A stretch of DNA of 64,000 nt, taken from contig CAVQYV010000009.1 in NCBI GenBank assembly GCA_963718295.1, forward strand, positions 62,001 through 126,000. The letters are read 5' to 3'. Every line of letters starts with the position of its first letter. The stretch's first letter is position 1. Source of the stretch: CAVQYV01 sp963718295 [NCBI: uncultured Methylomirabilota bacterium]. GTDB lineage: Bacteria > Methylomirabilota > Methylomirabilia > CAVQYV01. Both the position numbers and the translations under genes were made by a program. Below, piece after piece: positions 12,924 through 27,462 of the stretch. The notes under the pieces were generated by a model. That model had not been told where the DNA came from. It was given only the letters and a program-made list of their open reading frames with translations, and searched no databases.

Positions 12924-13403
12924 CTATTGGGTGAAGTGCTCGTGGATTCCCACATTCTTGTCGAACTTGAAGCCCTTGAAGGTGGGACTCTTCTTATTGT
13001 GGCAGGTCTGGCAGACCGCCTCGTTTTGTTCCCAGAGGCCGCCTGCCACTCGTTTCTCCTTGTCCTTCATCACCCGAAAATAGACGCTTCCCGGGCCATG
13101 ACAGCCCTCGCACTGCACCCCCACCATGGTCGGGGTCTCCTCCAGGCTCTTGAATCCCCCTTCTTTTCCATAGCCAGTGGTGTGGCAGATCAAACATTCG
13201 GCCTTTCCCTGCTCCTCTGGCTTCAATAGGTCGAAGGCCTTGGCCATCTTCGTCTCCTGCCACGACTTGGTTTGCTTTCCGTGGCAAGGCTTACATTTCT
13301 TGTTAGTCACATAGGTGGGCTCATCCGCCCAGGCCAAAGACGAAGCTGACCAGAGGACAAAGCCCGCGATCGCCAAAATTGCCCATCCCCTTCGGCTTCT
13401 CAT
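12924..13403 (-). CDS. Tetrahaem c554-type cytochrome (second copy)
   Basis: Start ATG 13403 is taken because AAAGGAGG lies 10 bases upstream. The 159-residue product begins with a signal peptide (RRGWAILAIAGFVLWSASS, cleaved after AWA). Four CxxCH haem sites follow: CKPCH, CLICH, CEGCH and CQTCH, with the family blocks SWQETKMAKAF and VGVQCEGCHGPGS. This is the cytochrome c554 family (Cytochrom_C554), a periplasmic electron carrier. It is the final gene before the terminator and is paralogous to the cytochrome just upstream. It probably accepts electrons from the GMC dehydrogenase encoded in the same operon. Confidence 0.85.
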   Translation of the reverse strand: MRSRRGWAILAIAGFVLWSASSLAWADEPTYVTNKKCKPCHGKQTKSWQETKMAKAFDLLKPEEQGKAECLICHTTGYGKEGGFKSLEETPTMVGVQCEGCHGPGSVYFRVMKDKEKRVAGGLWEQNEAVCQTCHNKKSPTFKGFKFDKNVGIHEHFTQ

Positions 13404-13509
13404 GATGCGATTGCCTCCTTTCATCTCTCCCCGATGAAAACGTTCAACCATAGGATGGGGTTGCCGGATCACCTCCTTCCCGCCAACCTCCTCGCTTTTC
13501 ACTCTTCTT

Positions 13510-14034
13510 TCAACGGTCGAATTGGTGTTCCTTAAACCACTTGGTCATCGGAAAATGATCGTGTACTCCCTTGTTCTTATCGAACTTGAAAGGCCCAGGG
13601 GAGGTCGGACTATTCTCGTTGTGGCAGGTGACACATAGCTTTTCGTTCTGCTCCAGCAATCCCAATCCCATCGAGACGTACCGGTTGCGCATGATCTCAT
13701 CCGTATAGTATAGAGAGCCCGCACCATGGCACGCCTCACACTGAACCCCGGCCATCTTGGGGGTAGTCTTGAAACTGTCAAATCCCCCTGGTCCCTTGTA
13801 TCCGGTGACATGACAGGAGATACAGGCAGGATCCTCCCTCTGCTCGCCGCTCAGGCTATCCGTAAAGGTCTTCGCCATCTTGGTCTGGGCCCATGATCGA
13901 TATTGCTTCCAATGGCACATCTTACACGTATCGGTACCCACATACTTGCCCATCTCCCCTGGGAAGGAGTTGACCGACATCCCTATCAGGGCAATGAGGG
14001 AGATCCACAGAACCAACCCCAATTTTCGCTTCAT
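13510..14034 (-). CDS. Tetrahaem c554-type cytochrome (first copy)
   Basis: ATG 14034 follows AAAGGAG at a suitable distance. The 174-residue product has a signal peptide (LGLVLWISLIALIGMSV) and four CxxCH motifs: CKMCH, CISCH, CEACH and CVTCH. Blocks SWAQTKMAKTF, MAGVQCEACHGAGS and a C-terminal KFDKNKGVHDHF are shared with the next gene, so the pair arose by tandem duplication. It is a periplasmic electron carrier of the c554 family. Having two such proteins suggests they form a short haem wire or serve different partners. Confidence 0.85.
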   Translation of the reverse strand: MKRKLGLVLWISLIALIGMSVNSFPGEMGKYVGTDTCKMCHWKQYRSWAQTKMAKTFTDSLSGEQREDPACISCHVTGYKGPGGFDSFKTTPKMAGVQCEACHGAGSLYYTDEIMRNRYVSMGLGLLEQNEKLCVTCHNENSPTSPGPFKFDKNKGVHDHFPMTKWFKEHQFDR

Positions 14035-14127
14035 CGATCCCTGACTCCTTTCATCTCCTCGCGCATTCAAGTCCTCGAACTCTGATTACTGAAGGGTAGG
14101 GGACGCGAACCTATTCGATATCCCGTT

Positions 14128-14598
14128 TTAGGTTCCCGGTGCAAACTTCATCTTTCGCTTGGGCTTGGCCGCCGCCTCACCACCCAGCTTCTTGCCCACT
14201 TCCTGGACCTGCGCAACGATGGCCCCGGGATCGGCTCCGAGTTGGCCCGCGATCTCCTCCCATTTCTTTCCCGACTTGAGCAACCCTAAAACATCCTGCT
14301 TTGGCTTGCTTGACGCGCTGGAGGTGGCCAACAAGGCCGCGATACTACCATAGCTGATCTTGTCGTTCAGGTAAGACTGGATCTCTTCCTTCTGCACTCC
14401 AAATTGCCCCATCAATGCCTCTTCCACCTTGCCTGCGTCCTTGCTCGCCTCACTGTCGATCCTGCCAATCTCCTCGTTGAGGACATCCTCGACCGAGCCC
14501 TGGGCAAGACAGGGCAAAGGAGAAGACAGGATCTGCGATCCGAAGAACACCGCAGCGGTGATGGTTACCCAGAAAAGGATTCCCTTGAATTGTGACAT
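14128..14598 (-). CDS. Secreted helical protein of unknown function
   Basis: ATG 14598 follows AGGAGG by 9 bases. The 156-residue product has a signal peptide ending near PLPCLAQG, then a charged helical domain. Two repeats of a pattern (hydrophobic-GV-x-KEE-I, SYGSIAALLA, then LLKSGKKWEEIAGQLGA) resemble short helix-turn-helix units found in exported proteins of anaerobic proteobacteria. The tail AKPKRKMKF is basic. No haem, metal or catalytic motif is visible. It lies between the GMC dehydrogenase and the cytochromes in one operon and may be an assembly or docking factor; that is inference. Confidence 0.7.
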   Translation of the reverse strand: MSQFKGILFWVTITAAVFFGSQILSSPLPCLAQGSVEDVLNEEIGRIDSEASKDAGKVEEALMGQFGVQKEEIQSYLNDKISYGSIAALLATSSASSKPKQDVLGLLKSGKKWEEIAGQLGADPGAIVAQVQEVGKKLGGEAAAKPKRKMKFAPGT

Positions 14599-14636
14599 CG
14601 CAATTTTCCTCCTCATGTCAATCGATGAAGAATGGT

Positions 14637-16268
14637 TCACAGGTCTAATCTCTTGGCCGATCGAATGATGTAATCGGCAGTCCGGAAGGCTATGGCCTGG
14701 ATCGTCAAGGCTGGATTGGCCCCTGCCGAGGTGACAAAGCATGAGGCATCCGGCACAAAGAGGTTGGGGACATCGTGAGCCCGGCACCACTTATCGAGCA
14801 CGGACTTGCCCGGATCATTGCCCATGCGGCAAGTACCCATGTGATGGGCGCTTTGGCCATGGAGTTCCTCCAATTCACCACCCCAGGTTTTTGTCGCCCC
14901 GGCTGCCTCCATGATCTCCCGCGCTCGGGCACCGATGTAGTTGGCAGCCTTGTAGTCATTCTCATGGTATTTGTGAGTGATACGGGCCACGGAAAGCCCA
15001 TATTTGTCCTTCACCTCGGGATCCAGATCGATGATGCTCGATTCCTGGGGGAGGTCCTCCCCGTGGAGCAATAGGGCCATCCAGTGGGAGAAGTACTCCC
15101 GGGAGAAATCCTTGTGGCGCTGTCCCCACATCGGCTCGTCCGGCGGTCGCCTCCACTGGAAGCTGATGGGGCCGCGATAGGTGGAGCCTTCGATAGTCCC
15201 TCCCCGGATGAAGCCACGCTTGGTATCCGTTTCGTAGAAGTCGTGTACACAGACGGTGGAGAAGGGCCCCTTGAAGGCATTCACTGGCCAGGGAAAGATC
15301 CCTTCCGCTTGGGCCTGGATATGGTACATCATGTTCTTGCCCACCAGGCCGCTGGAGTTGGCCAGTCCCTGCGGGAACTTTCCCGATTTCGATAGCAGCA
15401 GGAGTCGAGCCGATTCGACCGCCCCCCCGCAAAGCACGAACAGCTTGGCCTCCTGCTCTTGCACCTTGCCATTCGGATCGATGTAAGTGACGGCCCTGAC
15501 CTTCCCGGAGGCATCGACCGCGAGGTCCCGAACCATGCAGTTGGCCCGGATCTCACATTTACCAGTCGCCAAAGCCTTGGGAATGACATTATTCAGGGTG
15601 CTGCCCCGGGCAGCCCGCATGCAGGCATACCAACCGCAGAACCCGCAATAGGCGCAGGGTGGTCTTCCATCATACCAGATGGTGTTGATCGCCATAGGGG
15701 TAGGAAAGGGATGCAGTCCCAGCTTCTTGGCCCCTTTGATGCACATCTGCCCCGTTCCGATGGGTAGCAACGGAGGCATGGGATAGGGCTTCTTGCGGGG
15801 AGGATCGAAAGGATTGGCCCCCGCCAGTCCCGATACCCCAATCTCATATTCCGCCTTCTCGTAGAAGGGCTCCAGCTCCTGATAGGTGAACGGCCAGTCC
15901 TCGATGGTCGCGCCCGCCATTGTACCATCCACCGATTTCACCTTGAAATCTGACTCATGATAACGCCAAGAGAGGGCGCAATAGGTCAGGGTGCTTCCTC
16001 CCACTCCCATATTGCGGGCCACATGAAATCCCGGCTCAGCCTTCTCTTTGGGGTCGGTGCGCAGGGTATTGGGAAAGTACTGCGGATCCGGGAGAAAATA
16101 GAAACGGACGGCTTGCCCCAGTTCATCATTTTCAAAATCCGCAGGGGTGCGAAACGGCCCGACTTCCAGCGCCACCACCTCAAAGCCCGCCTCGCTGAGC
16201 TCCTTGCACATGACGCCCCCAGCTGCGCCAGTCCCGATGATACAGACATCTACCTTCTTGTTTGGCAT
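14637..16268 (-). CDS. GMC-family oxidoreductase (sugar/alcohol dehydrogenase flavoprotein)
   Basis: A 543-residue flavoprotein. The FAD-binding fingerprint VDVCIIGTGAAGGVMCKEL is at the N-terminus, a GMC signature-like NMGVGGSTLTYCALSWRY follows, and the C-terminal catalytic part includes HHMGTCRMGNDP and NPALTIQAIAF. It matches the large subunit of gluconate 2-dehydrogenase and related sorbitol, fructose or glucoside-3-dehydrogenases, which oxidise a hydroxyl and pass electrons to a haem subunit. It has no signal peptide of its own. The Tat-signal protein encoded 36 bases upstream probably carries it out. The substrate is unknown. Confidence 0.85.
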   Translation of the reverse strand: MPNKKVDVCIIGTGAAGGVMCKELSEAGFEVVALEVGPFRTPADFENDELGQAVRFYFLPDPQYFPNTLRTDPKEKAEPGFHVARNMGVGGSTLTYCALSWRYHESDFKVKSVDGTMAGATIEDWPFTYQELEPFYEKAEYEIGVSGLAGANPFDPPRKKPYPMPPLLPIGTGQMCIKGAKKLGLHPFPTPMAINTIWYDGRPPCAYCGFCGWYACMRAARGSTLNNVIPKALATGKCEIRANCMVRDLAVDASGKVRAVTYIDPNGKVQEQEAKLFVLCGGAVESARLLLLSKSGKFPQGLANSSGLVGKNMMYHIQAQAEGIFPWPVNAFKGPFSTVCVHDFYETDTKRGFIRGGTIEGSTYRGPISFQWRRPPDEPMWGQRHKDFSREYFSHWMALLLHGEDLPQESSIIDLDPEVKDKYGLSVARITHKYHENDYKAANYIGARAREIMEAAGATKTWGGELEELHGQSAHHMGTCRMGNDPGKSVLDKWCRAHDVPNLFVPDASCFVTSAGANPALTIQAIAFRTADYIIRSAKRLDL

Positions 16269-16304
16269 ATCATCCCTCCAAAAATGATAGATAATATCCT
16301 TGAC

Positions 16305-16910
16305 TTACTGCTCCGTCACCCGGGCAAAAGGAGGGAAATAGCCCCGGGGCTGAGAAGGTCCAGGAAACCCTACCAAAGCCCATCCTACATGATCCTTGTT
16401 CCCTCCGTATTGGGGATCCGAGTAGAATCCCTCATAGGTATGGGCCAGCAGGCAGTCATAAAAGAAGGCCGAGGCAGGCACTTCCTTCCAAACCTCCGCC
16501 GGAACCTCATCTTTCTCCATGGCCTTCATCAATTCGATCTGTTCCTTGGGGGTCAGATCGAGGAATCGATCTTTCTTGAACATGGCCTTGGCGGACTGGT
16601 CAGTAGCCTTGATCCCCAGGGTATACATTTCCTGTTGGTCCGAATAGACCGTAGCCAGGGCAATATCGATATAATTCACGACTCCCGCTTCTTTGGCTCC
16701 CGGATATTGATCGGTCGGGATGATCTGAGCCGTCAATGCCTCCACGGTCGCCCATTGATGTTCATCCAAGAACTTGTGCTTAGTGGAGGTTCCCTCGGCG
16801 GCCATCGCCTGACTCAACATGCCCTCTTTCTCCACTCCCTGCAAGGCTAAGAGGGCAGTTCCGCTTGCCATGGCCTTGAGAAAACCTCTACGAGAGATTT
16901 CTTTGGTCAT
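16305..16910 (-). CDS. Gluconate 2-dehydrogenase subunit 3 family protein with Tat signal
   Basis: A 201-residue protein starting MTKEISRRGFLKAMASG, a clear twin-arginine signal. The mature part (HQWATVEALTAQIIPTDQYPGAKEAGVVNYID) is the Gluconate_2-dh3 family. These small subunits pair with GMC flavoproteins and bring the folded complex through the Tat system. It is the first gene of the five-gene operon and sits about 50 bases downstream of a good promoter. It supports the view that the downstream dehydrogenase works in the periplasm. Confidence 0.85.
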   Translation of the reverse strand: MTKEISRRGFLKAMASGTALLALQGVEKEGMLSQAMAAEGTSTKHKFLDEHQWATVEALTAQIIPTDQYPGAKEAGVVNYIDIALATVYSDQQEMYTLGIKATDQSAKAMFKKDRFLDLTPKEQIELMKAMEKDEVPAEVWKEVPASAFFYDCLLAHTYEGFYSDPQYGGNKDHVGWALVGFPGPSQPRGYFPPFARVTEQ

Positions 16911-17090: not shown

Positions 17091-17585
17091 TTATGAATCA
17101 GGTGACACAGGGGCCATTGGGCCGGGAAGGCTGCAGATCAGTTCCTCAAGGACCTCAATCGCCCTTTTCACCTCAGGGCTCATCGGATCCAGGTACTCGC
17201 AGCCCTTGGCTTGCACCGCGAGAATGATGATCTTGCCCTTCAACTGTCTCTTGAGGTAGTCCAGAAAGAGACGAAGGGAGAGATTATGGGTAAAGAAGTT
17301 GGCGTTGGCGATCTCATCCTCCCCGATCTGTCGGATCTCTCCCGGCCTGCCCTTCCAATCGGCCGCATCTACCAGTATCAGGGTGTCCGGACCAAATTGG
17401 AGGATCTGCTTGGTATAGTTTTCGGGAGCCTCGCCGCAATCGAGGAGGGCCAACTTGCATCTTCGCCTCAAGCGCCGGATCAGCGTGGGCCCCACCCCAT
17501 CGTCTCCTCGGAGGGGATTGCCAACCCCCAGGATCATGATCCTCCCGGTCCCGGGTGCTCGGCAGGCTTCCGCTATGTTTTCCAT
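17091..17585 (-). CDS. [NiFe]-hydrogenase maturation protease (HycI/HyaD family)
   Basis: The family core starts at ILGVGNPLRGDDGVG, with the nickel-sensing acidic residues there and in ILVDAADW, and the histidine in FTHNLSLRLF. These endopeptidases remove the C-terminal tail of the hydrogenase large subunit after nickel insertion. Start choice is unsure: ATG 17585 is used. TTG 17648 (GAGGAG 4 bases upstream, overlapping the receiver-domain gene) and ATG 17540 (GGAGG close upstream) are also possible. It is the last gene of the hydrogenase operon and supports a true hydrogenase function for the complex upstream. No other hyp genes are in the window. Confidence 0.85.
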   Translation of the reverse strand: MENIAEACRAPGTGRIMILGVGNPLRGDDGVGPTLIRRLRRRCKLALLDCGEAPENYTKQILQFGPDTLILVDAADWKGRPGEIRQIGEDEIANANFFTHNLSLRLFLDYLKRQLKGKIIILAVQAKGCEYLDPMSPEVKRAIEVLEELICSLPGPMAPVSPDS

Positions 17586-17628
17586 GGCAGAGTTGTTGAG
17601 CCGTGAGACTGGGGTTGGCGGAGCGGAC

Positions 17629-18042
17629 TCAGGAGGAAACAGGCCCAAGCAACTCCTCGATCTTTCCGGCGAGGGCTTCAGGGGTCACGGGCTTTTCCAT
17701 GAATTCGTCGACCGGCAAGAAGTAAGGATGTCGAGTAAGGCTGGGGAAGGAGATATCCGCCTGCTGCTTGAGGTCCGATAGCATCAGCAGAGGAATCGAA
17801 GAGAATGGCTTATACCCTGAGGACCTTCGGACCTTCCTGGCAAAGAGGATGCCGTCGCCCCGTTGATTCATGACGAGGTCGATGACCACCAGCGCCGGCG
17901 CCGTCTCCCGCAGCTTGAAAAGGCCTTCCTCGCAGGTATTGGCCAGAATCACTTCAAATCCCTTGGCCTCGAGCGCTTGAAGGCTCGCCTGGGCGAATTC
18001 CTGGTCCTCCTCCACGATCAATATTCGGCTCTTGCTCTGCAA
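17629..18042 (-). CDS. Stand-alone response-regulator receiver protein
   Basis: A 137-residue receiver domain with no output domain. The acidic pair is E12/D13 (ILIVEEDQEF), the phospho-acceptor is D55 in ALVVIDLVMN, and the conserved lysine is in DEFMEKPVTPE near the C-terminus. It lies 15 bases after the ferredoxin-like hydrogenase subunit and just before the maturation protease, so it is cotranscribed with the hydrogenase. No cognate kinase is next to it. A regulatory input into hydrogenase activity or assembly is possible but only inferred. The receiver spacing includes an insertion (GYKPFSSIPLL), so it may be slightly atypical. Confidence 0.8.
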   Translation of the reverse strand: MQSKSRILIVEEDQEFAQASLQALEAKGFEVILANTCEEGLFKLRETAPALVVIDLVMNQRGDGILFARKVRRSSGYKPFSSIPLLMLSDLKQQADISFPSLTRHPYFLPVDEFMEKPVTPEALAGKIEELLGPVSS

Positions 18043-18057
18043 CTTTTCTCCTGCCCG

Positions 18058-18510
18058 CTATTTCTTCTCTGCCGATTCGTCCGGGCCCTCGTAGCACCTG
18101 AGCAGCTGATCTTTGTCCAGAGTGGCCAACTCGTAATCGGCTGTCAGGCGGAGGGCCTTCTTGGGGCATGCATCCACACACTGGGCACAATACAGGCACT
18201 TTCCCAGGTTGATGACCGCCCGGAATTTCTTCTTGCCGGGCTTGTCGATCTGAACCTGCACTTTCTTCTGCTGCAGCAAGGAGCGATAGGAAAACTGGTA
18301 CTTCTCCCCTGGCACTTGAAAGATCTCGATCGCTCCTGACGGGCAATCTCTCACGCACACCTTGCAACCGATGCATAGGTCGCCATCAAAAGAGATCCTC
18401 CCCCGATACCGGGGGGCGATTTTAGACTTCTCGTAGGGATAGCGACAGGTCACCGGCTCACGACACAGGCTCCCTACCAATTCCTTCAGCATCCGGGCAG
18501 GCTTCATCAT
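18058..18510 (-). CDS. Hydrogenase 2x[4Fe-4S] ferredoxin-like subunit (NuoI/HycF type)
   Basis: A 150-residue protein with two complete cluster motifs, [14 protein letters not shown] and [15 protein letters not shown], separated by about 40 residues as in NuoI, HycF and EchF. It would wire electrons from a soluble donor such as ferredoxin to the small subunit. It starts 1 base after the NuoH-like gene. The C-terminal tail (ESAEKK) is short. No NuoE/F/G NADH module is encoded nearby, so NADH is unlikely to be the direct partner. Confidence 0.9.
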
Positions 18511-18511
18511 C

Positions 18512-19459
18512 TCACATCATGGCCTTTGCTATCAGGTTGATCAAGATCTGGATCAAGGCCGCAGGGGCCAGGATCTTCCAGCAGAAGGCGATCATCTGCT
18601 CGATCCGGATCCTGGCCATCAGCGCTCGCATGGTGGCCAGGACGAAAACGATGGCAATCGTCTTGCCCACAAAAAGCGCAAATCCCAGCAACCCGGGAAG
18701 GCCCAGTGATCCCCCCAGGAACACTGCGCTGATCAAGGCCGCCCCGACCACCATCTCCATATCGGTGGCCAACAGGAAGAAGGCAAGCAATCTGCCTGAG
18801 TATTCAGTAAAGGAACCGCCCACGATCTCGGTCTCCCCGTGGGGTATATCGAAGGGCACACGCTCCAACTTCCCCTGCAGGGCGATCAAGGCTACCGCCA
18901 GGCCGATCAGATTAACGAGAATGAGCGCCGGATGAGCGGACAGATAGGAGGAGATCCCCTCTATGCTCCAGGTTCCGGAAAGGATGGCCGGGCCGAGCAC
19001 AGCCATCATCATCGGCACCTCATAGGCAAATAGTTGGGTGAGAACCCTGATGGAGCCTATGGCAGCATAGGGGCTGGTAGAGCTCCAGCCCCCGAGAAAG
19101 AAGGTGACCGTGGGAATGGTAAGCAGATAGATGACGGCGATCAGATCGCCCTGAAAGGAAAAGACCGCCTCGTCACCCCACACCGGGATCATCAAGATGG
19201 AGGTACATACCGAGGCCGCCGCAATCCCGGGCAGGACCTGGAAAAGGACCCGGTCTGCCGCCTTAGGGATGATCACCTCCTTGCCCATCAGCTTGGTAAA
19301 ATCGGCGAAGGGCTGAAACCAGGGGGGACCGATTCGATATTGCATCCTGGCGTAAAACTTCCGGTCCAGCCATTCTGCTACCATCCCGTAAAAGGAAAGG
19401 AAGAGGAACCCAGGAAAGACCAATACCGCAAAGGCCGCTTGGATCGTCTCTGTCACCAT
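18512..19459 (-). CDS. Hydrogenase membrane subunit, NuoH/HycD type
   Basis: A 315-residue protein with eight hydrophobic segments. Diagnostic blocks are [25 protein letters not shown] near the start, the [21 protein letters not shown] loop, and [15 protein letters not shown] with conserved acidic residues, all typical of complex I subunit 1 and hydrogenase-4/3 subunit 4. This subunit joins the soluble arm to the membrane arm and takes part in coupling. It is contiguous with the large subunit gene (1 base apart). Confidence 0.92.
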
Positions 19460-19460
19460 G

Positions 19461-20660
19461 CTATTGAGAAACCCTGGAAAAGTCGATGCCCCGTCTCCGG
19501 TAGAATTCTATCGCTTTCCTCCTCAAGTCCCCCCAGTCGAGCGACAAATCCCCGCCGGCTGAGCTATGGACCTGGATGGCCCGGTCGGTACAGGAGAAAC
19601 AGGGGTCGATGGCGGCGATGACGATGGGTGCATCCGCCAGGTAACCGCCTTCGAGCATGTAGGCAACGGAGGAGAAATTGGCCAGGGTGGGTGCCCTCAC
19701 CTTGACCCGCTCCGGCCTCTCCGTCCCGTTGGATCTGACATAGTGCATATCTTCCCCCCGGGGAGCCTCGAAATGGCCGATGCCCTCTCCCGCCGGGATC
19801 CGGCGAGGAGCTTTGACCGTAAGGGGCCCCTCGGGAAGATACTTCAGCACCTGCCGGACCATCTTGTAGGACTCGAGGAGCTCGAAAACGCGCACATAGA
19901 GACGGCCAAAGACATCGCAGGAGTCGTAGGTAACCACGTTGAAATCCAGCTCATCGTATATGAGATAGGGATCATCCCTGCGGATATCGCGGGGCACATT
20001 GGAACCCCGGGCCGTCGGACCCACCGCCCCCCTTCTATGCGCCTCTTCCGTGGGCAGATGGCCCACTCCCCTCACCCGGGCGATCAAGGTAGGCTCCTCG
20101 GTGGCCAGCTGGATATAGTATTTTGTCCTTTCCTCCAGGATGTCTATCCGCTTCAGGATCTCACTGGCCTGCTCTGGAGTGATGTCCCGCCTGACCCCCC
20201 CGATGGTATTGAGGGAGTAGTGGACGCGATTCCCGGAGATCATCTCCAGACAGTCCAAGACCTGCTCCCTGTCTTTCCAGGTGTACATGAAAAGGGTGTC
20301 AAAGCCGATTTCATGACCAGCCACTCCCAGCCAGAGCAGATGGCTGTGGATGCGCTCCAACTCTCCCACCAGAACGCGGATCGCCTGTGCTCGCTTCGGC
20401 ACCTCCACTTTGGCGCAATCCTCCGTGGCCATGCAGAAACAGGTGGTATGGGCGTGAGAACAGATCCCACAGACCCTCTCAATCAGGTACAGATCCTGGA
20501 TGTAGGATCGCTGCTCGCAGGCCTTCTCTATTCCTCTATGGTTGTATCCCAGGCGAACCGAAGCGCCGACGATCTGTTCCCCCTCCAGAACCAGCATGAA
20601 ATTTCCTGGCTCCTTCAACGCCGGATGCTGAGGACCCAAGGGAATCGTTAGCTTAGGCAT
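19461..20660 (-). CDS. Group 4 [NiFe]-hydrogenase large subunit (NuoD/HycE-like)
   Basis: A 399-residue catalytic subunit starting LTIPLGPQHPALKEP as in NuoD-like proteins. Unlike complex I NuoD, both nickel-ligand pairs are present: RVCGICSHAH (C64, C67, with H71) and DPCFSCTDR (C354, C357). This is direct evidence for a hydrogen-reacting [NiFe] centre rather than a quinone site. A 39-residue tail follows R360, the position where HycI-type proteases cut, and such a protease is encoded in the operon. Together with its neighbours it should couple H2 evolution or uptake to ion pumping. Subgroup within group 4 is not settled. Confidence 0.92.
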   Translation of the reverse strand: MPKLTIPLGPQHPALKEPGNFMLVLEGEQIVGASVRLGYNHRGIEKACEQRSYIQDLYLIERVCGICSHAHTTCFCMATEDCAKVEVPKRAQAIRVLVGELERIHSHLLWLGVAGHEIGFDTLFMYTWKDREQVLDCLEMISGNRVHYSLNTIGGVRRDITPEQASEILKRIDILEERTKYYIQLATEEPTLIARVRGVGHLPTEEAHRRGAVGPTARGSNVPRDIRRDDPYLIYDELDFNVVTYDSCDVFGRLYVRVFELLESYKMVRQVLKYLPEGPLTVKAPRRIPAGEGIGHFEAPRGEDMHYVRSNGTERPERVKVRAPTLANFSSVAYMLEGGYLADAPIVIAAIDPCFSCTDRAIQVHSSAGGDLSLDWGDLRRKAIEFYRRRGIDFSRVSQ

Positions 20661-20662
20661 CT

Positions 20663-21136
20663 CTATACCTCCTCAGGATATACGTCGGAGAGCTTCCACC
20701 CCTTCCTCAGCGGGTGCTGTCCCTGAGGCCAATCGTCGGGAAGGGGATAGTGCCTCCCGGGCGCAAGGCCCTCCACCTTCGCCCCCAACATATCCTCCAA
20801 CTCTCTCTCGTAAGGCTCCGCCCCGGGAAACATGGGGGTGATGGTCTGCACCCGGGGATCAGAGAGGGGCACTTTGACCTTCAGGCTCAATATCAGCCCC
20901 TGTGAAGATAGATGATAGATGAATTCAAGGGACTCCCCCACATCCAGTCCGGTGATCGTGCCCAGATGGTCACACCCCAGCTCTTTCTGGACGAAATCCA
21001 CCACCTCCACCAGGTTCTCCCGGGGAACCTCCACATACATGCGCCTCTTGCGCTGGATCACCCAGTTGCTCAGCAGGGCCCCAAATCGCTTCTCCAGGGC
21101 CTCCCTGATGTCTTCCTCCGTTCTCCTTCCCGTCAT
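20663..21136 (-). CDS. Hydrogenase NuoC/HycE-N type subunit
   Basis: A 157-residue protein ending in the NuoC signature LPDDWPQGQHPLRKGW. Its earlier part (LGCDHLGTITGLDVGESLEFIYHLSS) also fits the 30 kDa subunit fold. It has no cofactor and helps hold the large and small subunits together. It lies 2 bases before the large subunit gene, separate from it as in complex I and in some group 4 enzymes, rather than fused as in HycE. Confidence 0.88.
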   Translation of the reverse strand: MTGRRTEEDIREALEKRFGALLSNWVIQRKRRMYVEVPRENLVEVVDFVQKELGCDHLGTITGLDVGESLEFIYHLSSQGLILSLKVKVPLSDPRVQTITPMFPGAEPYERELEDMLGAKVEGLAPGRHYPLPDDWPQGQHPLRKGWKLSDVYPEEV

Positions 21137-21158
21137 GGAAACCTCCTGCGAAAACCTC

Positions 21159-21590
21159 CTATGGTTTGAGGCTGGAGAGCAATTTCACCACGCCATCGAT
21201 GATCGCTTCCGGCCTCACTGGGCAACCAGGGATGTAGGCGGAAACGGGGATGATCTTATCCACCCCTCCCAGCACATTGTAACAGCCGTTGAAGACTCCT
21301 CCCGTGCAGGCACAGGTGCCCACGGCCACTACGAACTTGGGCTCCGCCATCTGGTTGAAGATGCGCTCCATCCTGGAGGCGACCTGTCTGGTGACTGCCC
21401 CGCAGGCAACCATCACATCCGCATGCCTTGGCGTGGCCTTGAGAAGAATCCCGAAACGCTCCAGATCGAATCTCGGGGTGAGAGCATCCAGCACTTCGAT
21501 GTCGCATGCGTTGCAGGCACCCGAGTTGAAGTGGAGGATCCAGGGGGACTTGATTCGAGACCAATTCACCAGTTTTTCAAATACCTTCAT
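21159..21590 (-). CDS. Hydrogenase small subunit, NuoB/HycG type
   Basis: A 143-residue protein with ligands for one [4Fe-4S] cluster: C26 and C29 in GACNACDIE, then one cysteine in GTCACTGG and one in PGCPVRPEA. The CxxC spacing is the hydrogenase form; complex I NuoB has adjacent cysteines. The cluster lies nearest the [NiFe] site. The gene sits between NuoA-like and NuoC-like genes, the ABCD order of a complex I operon. Confidence 0.92.
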   Translation of the reverse strand: MKVFEKLVNWSRIKSPWILHFNSGACNACDIEVLDALTPRFDLERFGILLKATPRHADVMVACGAVTRQVASRMERIFNQMAEPKFVVAVGTCACTGGVFNGCYNVLGGVDKIIPVSAYIPGCPVRPEAIIDGVVKLLSSLKP

Positions 21591-21594
21591 CGTT

Positions 21595-21933
21595 TCACCC
21601 CACGAAGAGGATGGCCAGGGTTAGGCCCACTACCACCAGATAGACGATTCCCGACCCCAAGTAAGAGGCAAGTGAGGGCGCGATCGCCAGAGTGGCTAAC
21701 ATGAGTACCGCCACATGCATCATGGTAAAGAATATGGCAAAGGGGAAGAAGTCTCCATATTCTGGCTCCGCCTTCTCTCCCGCGAATTCCTCGCCGCAGG
21801 CATAGGGCAGGTCTTTTCCCGCCGCCTTACTCTGTTTCGCCGCCAATCCCGAACTCAGACGGGAAATGGTCCATATCAGCAAAAGATAAATGGCGAAGGC
21901 AATCGGCGGCCACACCAAAAGAGAAGATTTCAT
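21595..21933 (-). CDS. NuoA-like membrane subunit
   Basis: A 112-residue protein with three hydrophobic segments. The loop block YACGEEFAGEKAEPEYGDFFPFAIFF parallels the YECG-x-EP-x-G...F motif of NuoA. In NuoA the following helix carries an acidic FDIE pattern; here it reads MMHVAVLM, so the acidic residues are replaced and a histidine is present. It lies between the NuoK-like and small-subunit genes. In complex I this subunit cages the quinone tunnel, so its retention in a hydrogenase is notable. Confidence 0.75.
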   Translation of the reverse strand: MKSSLLVWPPIAFAIYLLLIWTISRLSSGLAAKQSKAAGKDLPYACGEEFAGEKAEPEYGDFFPFAIFFTMMHVAVLMLATLAIAPSLASYLGSGIVYLVVVGLTLAILFVG

Positions 21934-21940
21934 CTTTCGA

Positions 21941-22249
21941 TCAATCCTTTAGCTTGTCCAGTTTCCAAATATCGATCGATCCCGTCACCCCGTAAGCCTT
22001 GATGATCAGTCCGAGAGCAACGGCCACCACAACCACCTCTACCACAATCATGGTGATGGCAAGGGTCTGGGCGGTGTTGATTTTTCCGGTCGCAACCCCG
22101 CTCGAGATCAACGCCAGGATGCAGCCCTTGGACAAGATCTCGACCCCAATGAGCAGGCGGAGGAGATTTCGGGAGACCAGCAGGCAGTAGAGTCCCATAA
22201 AGGCCAGCAACAGGACAAAAAACCAATTCAGTTTCAGCAGTTCCGCCAT
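21941..22249 (-). CDS. NuoK/MrpC-like membrane subunit
   Basis: ATG 22249 gives 102 residues with three hydrophobic helices, the usual size for NuoK. LLRLLIGVEILSKGCILAL carries the conserved glutamate of helix 2, and TQTLAITMIVVEVVVVAVALGLII-type helix 3 carries a second glutamate (E in MIVVEV). These two buried acids form part of the proton path in complex I. The gene begins 3 bases after the NuoJ-like stop and ends 7 bases before the NuoA-like start. Confidence 0.88.
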   Translation of the reverse strand: MAELLKLNWFFVLLLAFMGLYCLLVSRNLLRLLIGVEILSKGCILALISSGVATGKINTAQTLAITMIVVEVVVVAVALGLIIKAYGVTGSIDIWKLDKLKD

Positions 22250-22251
22250 GA

Positions 22252-22731
22252 TTAATCGCGCCTTCCCGCAAAGAATGCCCGGATCACCAGGACCCCGGCC
22301 AGGATGATACATGCCTGCCCCATCAGATCATAAATCCTGGGGCCCCAGAGCAACACCCCGACCCCAGAGGGTTCCTGAAAGCTGGGAATCTCCGGCAAGG
22401 AAGGCCCCAGCCCTCCTCCCCAAAACCAGAGTCCCGCTCCGAAAGCGGCCAACCATAGAGGGAGCAGGACAAATCTCACCCGCCCCTCCTTCATGAACAG
22501 CTCCTCTTTCCGAATCATGGAAACAGCACTCACAAAGAGGACGGTAATCAGCCCGGCGCAGACCGAAAGCTCGAAAACGGCGGCCCAGGGCGCGGATAAG
22601 GCGAAGAGGACCAAAGTGAGGGCCACGCTCGCTACTGCGAGGCTGATGGCCGCCAAGAGCATATTTCTCGAAATGACTGCCAGCACCGAAAAAAGGAGCA
22701 TGAAGATGAGGAGCAATGAATAGGAAGTCAT
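22252..22731 (-). CDS. NuoJ/MbhD-like membrane subunit
   Basis: ATG 22731 overlaps the upstream stop (ATGA), so translation is coupled; 159 residues follow. Five hydrophobic segments are visible, and AVFELSVCAGLITVLFVSAVSMI is the helix with the pi-bulge region and acidic residue typical of NuoJ helix 3. A glycine- and proline-rich loop (GGGLGPSLPEIP) precedes the last helix. It links the antiporter-like part to the NuoK/NuoA/NuoH part of the membrane arm. Confidence 0.82.
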   Translation of the reverse strand: MTSYSLLLIFMLLFSVLAVISRNMLLAAISLAVASVALTLVLFALSAPWAAVFELSVCAGLITVLFVSAVSMIRKEELFMKEGRVRFVLLPLWLAAFGAGLWFWGGGLGPSLPEIPSFQEPSGVGVLLWGPRIYDLMGQACIILAGVLVIRAFFAGRRD

Positions 22732-24182
22732 AAGAGCGCTTGCGACGCCGGATCCACCAGCCAATGGTAGATCCACGGAAAATAGAGTCCGATGATGATC
22801 ATGAGGGCCGCCAAGAGGACTACCGGGACCAACATCCCGACCCGTACCTCCCTGGCACCTTCAGTGGAGGAAACTACCTTTCCAAAAAAGACCCTCCTCT
22901 GGAGGATGAGGAAATAACCCAGGGTTAATATGCTGGCCAGAAGGGCCAGTATAGCATATCCCTGGGCCCCTCCCATCCAGAGGGCAAGGATGATGATCAG
23001 CTTGCTCCAGAAACCGGAAAGCGGGGGGATGCCTGCGGTGGACAGAAAAGCCACCACCGAGGTCCAGGTGGTCCACGGCATCCTGGACCCCAAACCCCCC
23101 AGCTTGGTCATATCCCGGGTGCCGGTGGCCTCCTCCAGGGCAGCCCCATTCAAGAAGAGGGTGGCCTTGAAGGTGGCATGATTGAAGAGATGGAAGACAG
23201 CGCCGATCAGGGCCATAGGGGTTCCCAGCCCTGCGGCCAGCACGATATACCCCACCTGGCTGATGCTGGAAAAGGCGAGCAGTCGCTTGAAATCGCGCTG
23301 CACCATGGCTGCCAATGCCCCTGCCACGATGGAAAGGGCGCCAAAGAACATGAGGGCCTGGCCCACCGAGGCATAGCCTGGAACCGCTTTCAAGAACATG
23401 CTCATGCGCAGGAGGGCATAGACCCCGGCCACCTTGGTCACGATTCCCGAGAGAAGAGCAGCAATCGCAGGAGGTGAGGGCTGATACGCGTCGGGCACCC
23501 ATCCGTGGAAAGGCACCAGTCCGGCCTTCACCATGAAACCGCACACAAAAAACCCCATCGCCAACAGGATGCCAGAATGGCTGCCTGTCTCAGGGATTCT
23601 CTCCAGCAGGCTCGAAAAAGTAGTGCCCCCCGTGTAGAGGAAGAGCAGAGCCACTCCCAGGAGGATCAATAGGGAAGCAGGGGCAGATAGGAAGAGGTAC
23701 TTCACGGCGCCTTCGATGCCATCCGAATCCCCAGCAAAGGCAATCAGGGCAAAGGCGCTGACCGCCACCACCTCCAAAAAGACATACATGGTAAAGAAAT
23801 CGCCCGTGATCACCACTCCCGCCATCCCTGCGGTGCAGATCAGGATCAGAGAGAAATAGGAGGCCCTCCTCCTGCCCTCCTTGACCGAGAAGGCGGAAAA
23901 GAGGACGCAAATCAGAGAGATCAGGAAGATCGTAACCAGCATCAGGATGGAGAATTCATCTCCCCGAAAGGGAGCTACAGGGAAGATCCCCCAAGCGGCC
24001 CGGAATTCAGCCCCCAGCTGTGCCGCCAGTGGAACTTTCATGAGCGCCACCGCCAGCCCCAGGGCCAAGACCAGGACCGAAAGCAGGTCAACCACCTGCC
24101 GGCTGAGCCGCCGAACGAAGGGGAGAATGATCGCTGCCAGGGCCGGCAAAATGACAAAGGGAACCAACCCCTCCATCACCAT
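22728..24182 (-). CDS. Antiporter-like subunit (NuoN/MrpD type)
   Basis: ATG 24182 has GGAGG 7 bases upstream; a second ATG at 24176 overlaps the upstream stop. The 484-residue product has about 14 helices. Key coupling residues are visible: glutamate in FTMYVFLEVVAVSAF (helix 5), lysine in GFMVKAGLVPFHGW (helix 7), and lysine in SGIVTKVAGVYALLR (helix 8). The family block AFSSISQVGYIVLAAGLG follows. It is one of three antiporter-type subunits here and should move protons or sodium ions when the hydrogenase turns over. Confidence 0.9.
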   Translation of the reverse strand: MVMEGLVPFVILPALAAIILPFVRRLSRQVVDLLSVLVLALGLAVALMKVPLAAQLGAEFRAAWGIFPVAPFRGDEFSILMLVTIFLISLICVLFSAFSVKEGRRRASYFSLILICTAGMAGVVITGDFFTMYVFLEVVAVSAFALIAFAGDSDGIEGAVKYLFLSAPASLLILLGVALLFLYTGGTTFSSLLERIPETGSHSGILLAMGFFVCGFMVKAGLVPFHGWVPDAYQPSPPAIAALLSGIVTKVAGVYALLRMSMFLKAVPGYASVGQALMFFGALSIVAGALAAMVQRDFKRLLAFSSISQVGYIVLAAGLGTPMALIGAVFHLFNHATFKATLFLNGAALEEATGTRDMTKLGGLGSRMPWTTWTSVVAFLSTAGIPPLSGFWSKLIIILALWMGGAQGYAILALLASILTLGYFLILQRRVFFGKVVSSTEGAREVRVGMLVPVVLLAALMIIIGLYFPWIYHWLVDPASQALL

Positions 24183-26020
24183 GGCATCCCTCCAGAGAAT
24201 CCTGCCAGGATGGCAAACAGGACAAATCCCAATAGGGCCCATGCCAGGTAAGTGGGATAGAGCGAGTTATGCGCTTTGCCTGTGGCCCTGGAAAACAACA
24301 GGGTCATGCCTGCGGGCAGGGCATCGGTAAGCCAGTCCAGGGCTCTATCCACCCAGAACAGGACCCTGCCTATCCCATAGACGAATTTCATGCCATATTC
24401 GTAGGGGTCGAAATATCCCAAGCTAGCCAGATCGTAAATCTTCCCCAGGACCGGGGCATGGTGGATGTGATCCACTGCCTGGTAGGCTTTACCGGTACGT
24501 CTTAGGCCGAATATGTGATTCAGCACCGCAACCAGGAGCGCCGCCATGGAGATGAAGAAGACGGGGCCCGGATGGAAACCCCATAGCTCCCGCTCAGGTA
24601 TGATCCCGCTCTCCGCCACCGAGGGCTGAATCAGGGAGGCCAGCGGGATCTTGGCCCCAAAGCCAAAAAGGATGCAGGTGCCAGCGAGGAGGATCATGGG
24701 TACCAGCATTTGCCACTCCGCCTCCTGGACCTGTGCCTTGTCCTTCGGCCTTGCCCCGAAATAGACGGCATGCCCCAGCTTGAGAAAAGAAGCCAGGGTC
24801 AGGATGGAACCCACCACCCCTGCCCAGAAAAATATCGGGTATCCGCTGTGCAGTGCACCCTCCACGACCATCTCCTTGGAGAAGAACCCGTTGAATGGGG
24901 GGACGCCCGATATGGAGGCCGCCGTAATGATGTAGCAGGCTGCCGTGATGGGCATATTCTTCCGCAGCCCACCTAACGCGGTGATGTCAGTGGTCCCTGC
25001 CTTCCGTTCCACCGCCCCTCCACTCAGGAAGAGGCAGGATTTATAGATGGCGTTATTGATCATGTGAAAGAGGCCGCCTGCAATGCCAATGGGGTTCCCG
25101 GTACCCAAGCCGAGTATCATATATCCTACCTGGCTGATCGCGTGATAGGAAAGGAGCCTCTTGTAGTCCTTCTGTACCAGGGCCATCGCCACCGCCAGGA
25201 GGATGGTGATGGATCCGATCGCCATGAGGAGGATCTGCAAAGGGGCGTTCAGGATGAAGAGGTCCAGGCAAATGCGGGCCAGCAGGTAAATCCCCAGGAG
25301 CTTTTCCAGTGCCCCCGGAAGGAAGGCCATGAAAGGAAGGGGGGCATCGGTGGCCGCCGCCGGGATCCAGGTATGAAAAGGCATGGAGCCGCCCTTGGAG
25401 ATGGCGCCGATCATCATCAGGATGAAGGCCGCACCAGCCCATCCCCCTGCCACCGACAGCTGGATCGAGCTGATCTTCATGGTGCCCGCGATCGTCCCCG
25501 CAATGCCAATGCCCAATAGCAGACAGAGATCGGCAACCCCCATGATGATGAAGGCCTTCATGGCGGTCGCCTTGGCATCCTTTCGTCCCAAGGCGATGAA
25601 GGTATAAAGGGTGATCAGCAGGCCCTCCCAGAAGAAGAGGAGCAGGACCAAGTTATCCGCGAGCACCGCCCCCGAGGCAAACCCCAGGGTCGCCAGAAGA
25701 TAGAAATAGTACCACCGGAGATTACCGAGTCCGGACATGAAGGCGGTGGAGTAGAGGGAAATGAGGACACCGAACCCGGCGATGGCCGCCAAGATGAATG
25801 CGCTGAAAGGATAGAGCCGCAGGGAGAATTCGAAGCCGAATCCCGCCCAGGGCAGGGTGAGGGACATACGTTCCGGGAAGAGGAGGACTGTGACCACAAA
25901 AGAAAGGAGGGATGCGAACACAGCAATGACTTCCCGCAGGCGCTTCGTCCGTTCAGAGATGAGCAGGCACAAAAGCGCCCCCACCAGGGGAAGAAATATG
26001 GGGATCAACAAGGGGTTCAC
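24176..26020 (-). CDS. Antiporter-like subunit (NuoL/HyfB type, long)
   Basis: A 614-residue polytopic protein, the length of NuoL. Coupling residues are present: glutamate in LLLFFWEGLLITLY, lysine in GAISKGGSMPFHTW, and lysine in GALEKLLGIYLLAR. YHAISQVGYMILGLG is the conserved broken-helix region. The C-terminal ~150 residues include a long amphipathic stretch (HIHHAPVLGKIYDLASLGYFDPYEYG) and a final hydrophobic helix, consistent with the lateral helix of NuoL. Start and stop overlap both neighbours by 4 to 7 bases. Confidence 0.9.
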   Translation of the reverse strand: MNPLLIPIFLPLVGALLCLLISERTKRLREVIAVFASLLSFVVTVLLFPERMSLTLPWAGFGFEFSLRLYPFSAFILAAIAGFGVLISLYSTAFMSGLGNLRWYYFYLLATLGFASGAVLADNLVLLLFFWEGLLITLYTFIALGRKDAKATAMKAFIIMGVADLCLLLGIGIAGTIAGTMKISSIQLSVAGGWAGAAFILMMIGAISKGGSMPFHTWIPAAATDAPLPFMAFLPGALEKLLGIYLLARICLDLFILNAPLQILLMAIGSITILLAVAMALVQKDYKRLLSYHAISQVGYMILGLGTGNPIGIAGGLFHMINNAIYKSCLFLSGGAVERKAGTTDITALGGLRKNMPITAACYIITAASISGVPPFNGFFSKEMVVEGALHSGYPIFFWAGVVGSILTLASFLKLGHAVYFGARPKDKAQVQEAEWQMLVPMILLAGTCILFGFGAKIPLASLIQPSVAESGIIPERELWGFHPGPVFFISMAALLVAVLNHIFGLRRTGKAYQAVDHIHHAPVLGKIYDLASLGYFDPYEYGMKFVYGIGRVLFWVDRALDWLTDALPAGMTLLFSRATGKAHNSLYPTYLAWALLGFVLFAILAGFSGGMPW

Positions 26021-27462
26021 GGACGAAGAGCTCCTATTTGCAGAAAGACTTTATCGGCAAAGAGTGCGGGGAAGTAGATCAAAATACCCAGCAGCAGGGA
26101 CATGAAGCCCAAGGCAGCCACGCTCCATACCATGCTGGCCGAGCCCTCCCTCACCGAGGGGTGCCTCTCCTCTCCCAAAAAGACCATATAGAACAGCCGA
26201 AGGAGATAGGCCAGGGTCAGCACCGCCCCCAAGAGAAAGGCCCCCGCAATCCAAGGGTGACAAGCCACCACCGCACCCTGAAATACCATGAACTTGCTGA
26301 AGAATCCCCCAAAGGGAGGAATGCCCATCACCGAAAGGGAACAGAAGGCAAAGGAAACGGCAGTGATGGGCATGGCCCGCATGAGCCCCCCCAGCTTGGT
26401 GATATCTTTGATCTCCGTATTCTGCTCCACGATTCCTGCGCAGAGGAATAAGCCTCCCTTCGCCACGCCATGCATGAGAATATAGAGCATCCCCCCGGCA
26501 ACCCCAATATGATTCTGGGTGGAGAGTCCCAGGAATATGAATCCAATCTGACTAATGGTGGAGTAGGCGATGATCCGCTTCAGATCGGTATCGATGAGGG
26601 CGGCACCGGCAGCAACCAGGGCACTGGCCGCGGCAATGGCAGGAACCCACGTTTCCCACATGGGATCCGGGCGAAAGGTGGCGCAGAAGATCCGGGCGAA
26701 GGCATAGACTCCGATCTTGACCAATACGGCGGCGTGGAGCAGGGCCGTAACCGGAGAGGGCGCCACGCCAGCATCAGGAAGCCAGGTGGAGAAGGGCAAG
26801 GTGGCAGATTTGGAAAAGATCCCCAGAAGGATCAAGGCCGCCGCGAGCTCCGGGATCGAGCCTCCCCTCATCTCTCGCAGATCGAAGGTCCCGTGGGTGG
26901 CATAGACCATGATGAATCCCAGGAGCATGCAGAGGGCCCCAAAGACGGTCACCAGGAAGGTCTTGTCTGCCTTCAAGATATCCTTCTCGCTCCGGAAGAA
27001 GCCCACCAATCTCCAGCTGCAAATGGCGGTGATCTCCCAGAACACGAACATCCAGATCAGATTCATGGAAAATACCAGACCCATCATGGAGCCGAGGAAG
27101 AGGATCACCATCACATAGTATTCGGTCCGGTGGGGATAGTGGGAGATGTAGCCCAAGGAGAAGATGACGATGATGAGGCCCACCGAAGAAGAGACCAAGG
27201 ACATGAAGACAGCCAGGGAATCGGCGGCTAAACTGAGGTTAAAGCCATAGGGAAGATGGACCTCGAACGAGAGAACCGATCCCTGCCATACCGAAGGAAG
27301 GAGACTCAATGCCCCCCAGAGGGTGATCGTCCCGAGGGCAACCGCGAAGGCGTTTCGCGCCCGCTCCGAGATGGCATCGAATAGGGGCAAGAGGAAGCAG
27401 CCGAACAGGGGGGTGAAGACGGTGACGAGGAGCCAGAACGGATTGGATTCCACCAGATTCAT
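26017..27462 (-). CDS. Antiporter-like subunit (NuoM/NuoL type)
   Basis: First gene of the hydrogenase operon, 481 residues, about 14 helices. Helix 5 carries glutamate in LIWMFVFWEITAICS, helix 7 lysine in LGIFSKSATLPFSTW, and helix 8 lysine in LLHAAVLVKIGVYAF. The AYSTISQIGFIFLGLS block and KLGGLMRAMPIT loop are standard for the family. It ends with an ATGA overlap with the next subunit. With the two genes that follow it gives three complete antiporter modules, the number found in respiratory complex I. Confidence 0.9.
   Translation of the reverse strand: MNLVESNPFWLLVTVFTPLFGCFLLPLFDAISERARNAFAVALGTITLWGALSLLPSVWQGSVLSFEVHLPYGFNLSLAADSLAVFMSLVSSSVGLIIVIFSLGYISHYPHRTEYYVMVILFLGSMMGLVFSMNLIWMFVFWEITAICSWRLVGFFRSEKDILKADKTFLVTVFGALCMLLGFIMVYATHGTFDLREMRGGSIPELAAALILLGIFSKSATLPFSTWLPDAGVAPSPVTALLHAAVLVKIGVYAFARIFCATFRPDPMWETWVPAIAAASALVAAGAALIDTDLKRIIAYSTISQIGFIFLGLSTQNHIGVAGGMLYILMHGVAKGGLFLCAGIVEQNTEIKDITKLGGLMRAMPITAVSFAFCSLSVMGIPPFGGFFSKFMVFQGAVVACHPWIAGAFLLGAVLTLAYLLRLFYMVFLGEERHPSVREGSASMVWSVAALGFMSLLLGILIYFPALFADKVFLQIGALRP

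Follow-up and report, generated by a model that had tools for sequence, protein, structure and literature searches.

On the minus strand of the 64,000-nucleotide stretch of DNA analysed here (the window; positions 62,001 to 126,000 of contig CAVQYV010000009.1 of the uncultured Methylomirabilota bacterium CAVQYV01 sp963718295) we found 13 open reading frames (ORFs) in the same direction between positions 17091 and 27462. They encode 11 subunits of a complex related to [NiFe]-hydrogenases and to respiratory complex I, a receiver-domain protein and a HycI-type protease (Table 1). The genes are arranged in the order N1, L2, N3 (three antiporter-like pumps), J, K, A, B, C, D, H, I, receiver and protease, the single letters denoting likeness to the Nuo subunits of complex I. 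We read the operon, with a probability of about 0.7, as encoding a membrane-bound, ferredoxin-linked and ion-pumping [NiFe]-hydrogenase of group 4 (4g-like), in which a complex I-like docking core would be combined with pumps of mixed origin.

Table 1. Genes of the hydrogenase operon, listed from the pump end; positions are those of the window, aa stands for amino acids.
Gene product	Position	Strand	Features
N1, antiporter-like pump, 481 aa	26017..27462	-	NuoL-type His in helix 8; stops where the lateral helix would start
L2, pump, 614 aa	24176..26020	-	C-terminal lateral helix 538-582 and last transmembrane helix 588-607 (model)
N3, antiporter-like pump, 504 aa from first start	22728..24242	-	5' end overlaps L2; true start may be further in
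NuoJ-like, single ORF	22252..22776	-	PF00499, 36.3 bits (cut-off 33.2)
NuoK-like	21941..22312	-	PF00420, 62.5 bits; helix-2 Glu present, acid of helix 3 one turn before its place in complex I
NuoA-like	21595..21933	-	PF00507, 30.1 bits (cut-off 23.3); YACGE loop; Asp79/Glu81 of complex I replaced by His/Ala
NuoB-like small subunit	21159..21590	-	PF01058, 106 bits; hydrogenase-type CxxC, not the CC pair of complex I
NuoC-like, 157 aa	20663..21136	-	PF00329, 86 bits
NuoD-like large [NiFe] subunit	19461..20660	-	PF00346, 235 bits; PF00374, 48 bits; four Ni cysteines
NuoH-like	18512..19459	-	PF00146, 262 bits; most charged residues of complex I kept
NuoI-like	18058..18510	-	Fer4 domains; two CxxCxxCxxxCP motifs (two [4Fe-4S] clusters)
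Receiver-domain protein	17629..18042	-	PF00072; between I and protease
HycI-family hydrogenase maturation protease	17091..17648	-	PF01750, 63.9 bits; listed TTG start overlaps the previous ORF, true start may be further in

The Pfam matches of A, B, C, D, H, I, J, K and the protease all lay above the curated cut-offs. NuoA was the weakest single Pfam assignment in the operon. When a profile of its 13-member family was searched against the Protein Data Bank (PDB), ND3/NuoA chains made up 17 of the 18 matches up to an E-value of 0.1, the remaining match being chain I of Mbh (E 0.027). The three pumps matched models of NuoL/M/N, of Mrp and of Hyf, the best E-values being 6.5e-87, 1.1e-80 and 3.1e-94, and among the matches listed per pump none reached the curated cut-off of its model. 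Among the operon ORFs, Pfam and NCBIfam searches gave no NuoE-, NuoF- or NuoG-like protein, so that the 11 Nuo-like subunits without these three, as proposed in a first-pass annotation of the DNA, are borne out by both the family searches and the order of the ORFs.

The same annotation had stated that all four nickel-ligand cysteines are kept in the large subunit D, and they are indeed found in the motifs CGICSHAH and DPCFSCTDR, the second of which is followed by a tail of about 39 residues. Both conform to the nickel motifs published for group 4 [NiFe]-hydrogenases, which are designated L1 (C[GS][ILV]C[AGNS]xxH) and L2 ([DE][PL]Cx[AGST]Cx[DE][RL]) in PMC7886697 (the latter not to be confused with pump L2). 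Two archaeal large subunits among the loci that we collected for comparison, L018 and L109, have CGICTIAH and CGICCHAH instead; these retain the cysteines and deviate from the published L1 pattern at a single letter. The occurrence of NuoH and antiporter families in one operon is characteristic of group 4, and the HycI-family gene together with the tail of D points to a large subunit that is matured by a protease. Alternatively, the complex could be a related reductase (of the Mbs, Mbx or Ehr-like kind) that has kept its cysteines by chance. Such superfamily relatives exist, loci L054 to L056 have no second nickel motif, and Mbs itself is described as keeping two of the four cysteines (PMC7684303); against this, the window combines all four nickel cysteines and both motifs with a tail at the C-terminus of D and a neighbouring gene for the HycI protease, and we consider a reductase very improbable.

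For a quick tree of the large subunit, 138 sequences were thinned to 64 rows by a 76% identity rule and the truncated L017 was omitted. The window D fell into a clade with Elusimicrobiota (support 100) within a 37-row clade of NuoA-bearing hydrogenases (support 97), and a long supported branch parted its lineage from NuoD. The larger clade also includes Ca. Methanomethylicus mesodigestus, the enzyme of which has been placed in subgroup 4g-6 (PMC7886697). A more careful tree was calculated from concatenated B, D, H and I (51 rows, 928 columns). L204, L022, L190 and L206 had been left out of a first set of 49 rows, and the 51-row tree is also without L209, L203, L016, L006, L187 and L182; its Pyrococcus furiosus row consists of D only. 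For scoring NuoA on this tree, that row was taken to lack it on the basis of the literature, and L205 was excluded. The names Fpo, Ech, Ehr and Mbh, where used here for unnamed loci, were assigned from gene content and tree place.

In the concatenated tree, respiratory and hydrogenase rows were split at 100/100. The 13 rows without a free NuoA formed a clade (100/99), and its sister was an 18-row clade containing the window (100/99), the two together making up 31 rows (100/97). Within the 18 rows, the window and the relatives sharing its gene order formed a clade of 13 (97/92), and B, D, H and I of archaeal NuoA-bearing relatives sat in neighbouring branches. The presence of NuoA changes only once on this tree. 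It was found in 36 of the 49 rows of the first set; one of the other 13 rows had a weak match in the end of a pump, and two had weak matches in MbhI-like ORFs at a looser cut-off. We had considered that hydrogenases outside the NuoA-bearing group are wholly without NuoA, but dropped this after these weak matches and narrowed the statement to a free NuoA. The comparison of D and B with their NuoD and NuoB counterparts, as the first-pass annotation had suggested (B here as part of the concatenated set), thus places the window on the hydrogenase side with its large subunit outside complex I. Families, motifs and trees agree with its assignment to a group 4 [NiFe]-hydrogenase with NuoA and three pumps rather than to quinone-reducing complex I, of which the characters are not found here: the nickel ligands are kept, D lies off NuoD, and the operon has no NuoE, NuoF or NuoG.

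It had further been proposed that this enzyme is close to the hydrogenase-like ancestor of complex I. Such a surviving relative, with orthologues of NuoL, NuoM and NuoN that have merely diverged, would account for the 11 subunit families being the same as in Fpo and Nuo, and for the free NuoA and the helix-2 Glu of NuoK that are common to NuoA-bearing hydrogenases and complex I. The best tree does not agree with this, as the sister of the window lineage there is the group of hydrogenases without a free NuoA, and forcing the 16 rows of the bacterial clade onto the 7 respiratory rows was rejected (p 0.0049), as was with it the window lineage as the nearest relative of complex I. As a group, the NuoA-bearing hydrogenases share features with complex I, and by the best tree the window lineage is not its nearest relative. 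Together with the pump and residue evidence given below, this makes a surviving relative of the complex I ancestor unlikely.

The ancestry of the pumps was assessed in a careful tree under a mixture model with 67 rows and 439 columns; compared with a preceding quick pump tree, the long rows of L219, L200, L225, L199, L195 and one of L025 were dropped and rows of L176, L185 and L186 were added. NuoL (100/100), NuoM (100/99) and NuoN (100/99) formed clades that hold Escherichia coli Nuo, one archaeal Fpo, archaeal hydrogenases and the bacterial loci L177 and L192; one Elusimicrobiota Nuo fell within the NuoL and NuoM clades. The pumps of the window and of its relatives with the same gene order fell outside all three. 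L2 joined the long pump of hydrogenases without a free NuoA of the type found at locus L175 (100/100), N3 joined the short pump of the same enzymes (100/99), and N1 was nearest to an Ech-type pump (94/80). Joining L2 with NuoL by force lowered the log-likelihood (lnL) by 131 (p 3.4e-6), and with NuoM or NuoN by 155 and 184, all of which were rejected. N3, for which joins with NuoM and NuoN were calculated, was likewise rejected from both (lnL lower by 44, p 2.3e-4, and by 27, p 0.0016), and so was N1 from NuoM (lnL lower by 40, p 0.0015) and NuoN (lnL lower by 57, p 2.2e-4). What had been described as a complete complex I-type membrane arm is therefore not supported as one by descent, with L2 and N3 outside NuoL/M/N and the forced joins rejected. 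This also speaks against a surviving relative of the complex I ancestor, the more so as pumps of the NuoL/M/N type sit in archaeal relatives and in L177 and L192 instead.

Long branches, few columns and odd letter composition might however have misplaced L2 and N3 in an arm that has one history. The pump families are old and duplicated, an N3-type row of L014 was flagged for its composition, and the branch leading to NuoN of E. coli is long. We nevertheless think it improbable that the placement is an artefact of this kind, given the supports of 100/100 and 100/99 under the mixture model, the lnL losses of 131, 44 and 27 on forcing, and a quick tree with other rows in which L2 (support 100) and N3 (94) again grouped with L175 pumps. 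The C-terminus of L2 adds common features that are independent of these trees.

In rows without a free NuoA, the first helix and loop of this subunit are located elsewhere, either in an MbhI-like ORF or, as in HyfB and Ech among others, where the long pump ends. A profile built from ten of these segments independently matched three further loci of the clade (L175, L186 and L173); it also matched many free NuoA proteins (best E-value 3e-6), A of the window at only 0.006. The equivalence of this Loop 1 across Nqo7, MbhI and MbsH' has been published, with the loop joined to the lateral helix in MbhI and MbsH' but located on Nqo7 in complex I, and the length of the lateral helix is described there as following the number of pumps (PMC7684303). 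The loop equivalence is also given in PMC10396290, along with an antiporter domain in Mbh that is turned by 180 degrees. Four L175-type pumps have a loop of 17-19 residues with the motif [FY][IV]GGE, whereas L2 and its counterparts in L005, L013 and L188 have 0-1 residue at the same site. From the loop site to helix 16 we counted 74-75 residues in L2 and these three relatives versus 48 in the L175-type pumps. The span from helix 15 to helix 16 is 73-75 residues in three NuoL-type pumps, and that of HyfB, from the three-pump Hyf, is 70 after its loop. The surplus of 26-27 residues in L2 aligns to no insertion in NuoL, and the agreement is one of total span only. In an AlphaFold model of L2 with a mean pLDDT of 77.5, residues 538-582 form a helix that precedes the last transmembrane helix, and the first fold matches of the model in the PDB were NuoL chains, followed by chain A of an Mrp antiporter. 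The longer lateral helix of L2 fits the published rule that helix length tracks the number of pumps, of which there are three here.

Residues of the charged axis give a further comparison. Common to N1, L2 and N3 are a Glu in helix 5 and a Lys in each of helices 7 and 12; at the helix-12 position NuoM has Glu. In helix 8, L2 and N3 have Lys and N1 has His at the position of NuoL His254; of the earlier statement that the helix-5 Glu and the Lys of helices 7 and 8 are kept in all pumps, the part on helix 8 thus does not hold for N1. H of the window has kept most of the charged residues common to E. coli NuoH, with Glu216 replaced by His. Glu36 in helix 2 of NuoK was present in all 35 rows of NuoA-bearing hydrogenases and all 8 distinct rows of the respiratory type, and absent from all nine rows without a free NuoA. 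The acid in helix 3 is at position 72 in respiratory-type rows and at position 69 in all 20 bacterial and 5 of 15 archaeal rows of NuoA-bearing hydrogenases. A simple loss of Glu72 in hydrogenases, which we had considered, was dropped because the alignment shows the acid one turn earlier. Of nine distinct rows of the respiratory type, seven keep both Asp79 and Glu81 of NuoA; the other two, L219 and L221, have Glu at Asp79 and a hydrophobic residue instead of Glu81. None of the 36 hydrogenase rows has Glu81, and 19 of the 20 bacterial ones have His in place of Asp79, which again argues against a surviving relative of the complex I ancestor. L219, L221 and L224 are archaeal complexes with pumps before D and with a D that has no nickel ligands and ends in GSFGYFPPEADR.

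A single-protein search returned 27 loci, 13 of which have all 11 genes in the order of the window on one strand; the remaining 14 are mostly cut by contig ends or of other types. Among the matches, L014, from a metagenome assembly titled Elusimicrobium minutum, has the operon as in the window; E. minutum is a cultured anaerobe. Eight more contigs show this order (L179-L183, L188, L189 and L191), with the small A, K or C genes sometimes uncalled. The search for the same gene order in related genomes that the first-pass annotation had suggested was thus successful in three phyla, Elusimicrobiota, Omnitrophota and Bacillota, and the conserved 11-gene order is not due to chance. We counted a D of at least 57% identity in 35 genomes of the Elusimicrobiota group (149 searched) and in 18 of the Omnitrophota group (145 searched), and one of at least 56% in seven of the Bacillota group (299 searched), where an eighth match was cut by a contig end; these counts rest mostly on the large subunit, and not all of the genomes share the gene order of the window. 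Three of the seven Bacillota (L190, L192 and L193) and L177 from the Elusimicrobiota group have the order J-K-pumps-A-B-(C)-D-H-I instead, followed by the protease in L177 and L192 and, judged by gene order, also in L190 and L193. L177 and L192, and by gene order L190 and L193, are bacterial hydrogenases with a free NuoA; the two included in the pump tree, L177 and L192, have pumps of the NuoL/M/N type.

A second D of a 45-49% class was found beside the D of at least 57% in 12 of the 18 Omnitrophota and 10 of the 35 Elusimicrobiota genomes, the type having been inspected for some of these copies. With two classes of D in one genome, exchange between lineages is possible. D of the window groups with Elusimicrobiota, while GroEL of the window shares 72% identity with its counterparts in two Omnitrophota genomes, and for ProRS the best identity was 51% among 78 Omnitrophota genomes and 50% among 79 of the Elusimicrobiota group; because these affinities disagree, horizontal transfer of the operon is possible. 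The hydrogenase of L024, titled Elusimicrobia (fen_1175), groups with Omnitrophota, so that either the label may be wrong or the operon may have moved. The archaeal genome of L225 carries two group 4 hydrogenase sets that face each other, each with a free NuoA.

Taken together, the docking core (B, D, H and I as concatenated, K, and A by its presence) would belong to the lineage of NuoA-bearing hydrogenases, and L2 and N3 with the pumps of two-pump hydrogenases without a free NuoA, so that the arm is a hybrid; the pumps may have passed between the two lineages in either direction. We give roughly even odds to the history in which a core with a free NuoA was joined to a two-pump arm with a fused loop, whereupon the loop was lost, the helix grew and a third pump was added. 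The NuoA-like loop would have gone from L2 because it is provided by the separate NuoA. At 26-27 residues longer and with a NuoL-like span, the lateral helix of L2 would clamp the third pump N1. K of the window grouped with K of L177, L178, L190 and L192 in a K tree, not with K of the pump relatives, which is consistent with K belonging to the core.

Several observations weigh against this view. The K tree has 103 columns and supports of 87 to 91, and by pairwise search K is nearer to MbhG and MbsG, its closest solved chains, than to NuoK. Placing all 31 NuoA-bearing hydrogenases in one clade was not rejected (p 0.347), which touches the branching of the core, and the trees cover B, D, H, I, K and the pumps, with C, J and A in none of them. 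The pump joins were chosen after the tree had been seen. The join of N1 with NuoL cost an lnL of 3 and was not rejected (p 0.26), which favours a surviving relative of the complex I ancestor; one of the three pumps may thus be related to NuoL. Finally, no ferredoxin gene was found beside the operon among the subset of window ORFs scanned with Pfam.

Among described systems, the closest in composition is the Hfo of Bathyarchaeia (group 4g), presented as the first [NiFe]-hydrogenase with the 11 subunits and the gene organisation of Fpo/Nuo (Loh et al. 2021, PMC7886697). The window complex resembles it in the 11 subunit families, the missing input module, the nickel ligands and NuoA. The 11-subunit composition has therefore already been published for an archaeal enzyme, which comes near to what the first-pass annotation had named as refuting its view, but the gene order (pumps-J-K-A-B-C-D-H-I versus a Fpo/Nuo-like order) and the pump ancestry differ: L2 and N3 are not of the NuoL/M/N type that the wording 'same 11 subunits' implies for Hfo, the Bathyarchaeial genes not having been singled out in our trees. 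By pump type and gene order L177 and L192, and by gene order L190 and L193, are closer bacterial counterparts of Hfo than the window. The pumps closest to L2 and N3 belong to the two-pump hydrogenases of Elusimicrobiota and Omnitrophota typified by L175, L176, L185 and L186, which also have a HycI gene nearby but differ from the window in a loop fused to the long pump, no free NuoA, two pumps and another gene order. Mbh of P. furiosus (group 4d) and Mbs share with it a ferredoxin-linked ion-pumping module and the K chains closest in the PDB; in MbhI and MbsH' Loop 1 is joined to the lateral helix (PMC7684303), and their K has Asn or Ser aligned to the helix-2 Glu, unlike K of the window. Hyf/Hyc of E. 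coli and Ech have the group 4 hydrogenase core in common with the window, but no free NuoA, an ACG-type loop fused at the end of HyfB and a place in the separate 13-row clade. The fused loop and missing free NuoA of Mbh, Ech and Hyc are thus not found in the window, which has a free NuoA and an L2 without the loop. Complex I (Nuo) and Fpo share the NuoA, H, J and K families and the conserved charged residues of H; foreign to the window are their lack of nickel ligands, the CC pair of NuoB, Asp79-Glu81 of NuoA, Glu72 of NuoK and the NuoL/M/N pumps.

Bacterial enzymes of this general kind have been reported before. Hydrogenases termed 'group 4g, Mrp-linked' occur in Omnitrophota and Cloacimonadota (PMC8542988), and group 4g in Elusimicrobiales (PMC11257099). 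For related lineages, group 4 enzymes that include Mrp-like subunits have been reported (PMC6349859). The first two of these papers share phyla and subgroup label with the window type and, as far as consulted, give no subunit list or pump ancestry; some of their enzymes are likely identical with the window type, and others labelled '4g' in such papers on metagenome-assembled genomes are perhaps L175-type enzymes. In the literature searched we came across no treatment of where the pumps of these bacterial enzymes come from. Within that literature the mixed origin proposed here, as suggested by gene trees, the missing loop and the helix length, would be new, while the general kind of enzyme is known.

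The subunits, cofactor ligands, protease gene, conserved charged residues and gene order in three phyla can be read from the sequences, and from these we infer the electron donor, the pumped ion and the direction of the reaction. Electrons from ferredoxin would run along the two clusters in I, then the proximal one in B, to the Ni-Fe site of D, where protons would be reduced to H2. Ion pumping would be coupled to this through H, A, J, K and the three antiporter-like subunits. Loop 1 of A, together with loops of D and H, would relay a change at the Ni-Fe site to the charged axis and on to the pumps; the coupling path of Mbh has been modelled likewise (PMC11228991). The HycI protease would trim the tail of D during maturation.

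Electron transfer from ferredoxin to protons yields about 15-20 kJ per H2 under standard conditions. With so little energy, the pumping of several ions per H2 would require a small gradient or low H2, and the three pumps may therefore mean gearing or reverse operation. The suggestion of the first-pass annotation that more ions could be pumped per H2 than by Ech or Mbh is not supported by these energetics, as the number of pumps need not raise that of ions. As a variant of our interpretation, the enzyme might work mainly in reverse, an ion gradient driving the reduction of ferredoxin by H2 with the three pumps serving this. That direction has been proposed for archaeal Hfo (PMC7886697) and would suit the small energy span of the forward reaction; nothing in the window data indicates a direction, and we hold a mainly reverse mode to be quite possible.

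Of the genes around the hydrogenase, the receiver-domain protein within the operon had no relative in the other collected loci, its sole match being the window itself. In the adjoining region 12924-16910 on the minus strand, CxxCH motifs of the haem type occur in two small ORFs, of which one matches Cytochrome_C554; the region also holds a GMC oxidoreductase gene and a gene of the gluconate 2-dehydrogenase subunit 3 family. Lipopolysaccharide kinase and porin families elsewhere in the window suggest an outer membrane. Searches with Rfam (gathering cut-off) and a tRNA scan gave nothing in the 64-kb window.

Complex I is thought to have derived from a hydrogenase, and subunit lists are often taken as steps on that path. 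A hydrogenase that has the subunit list of complex I but pumps from another lineage would show that the list alone misleads about complex I origin. If the joining of a core to a two-pump arm took place as outlined above, the 11-subunit layout of complex I would have been reached twice and the pump arm would be an exchangeable part; the enzyme would also allow a direct test of arm orientation when core and pumps differ in lineage. Among the sampled loci, a free NuoA and the helix-2 Glu of NuoK co-occur and set complex I and half of group 4 against the Ech/Mbh/Hyc half, and Glu81 of NuoA and Glu72 of NuoK are found only in rows without nickel ligands. This distribution provides a concrete and testable order in which the charged axis was assembled.

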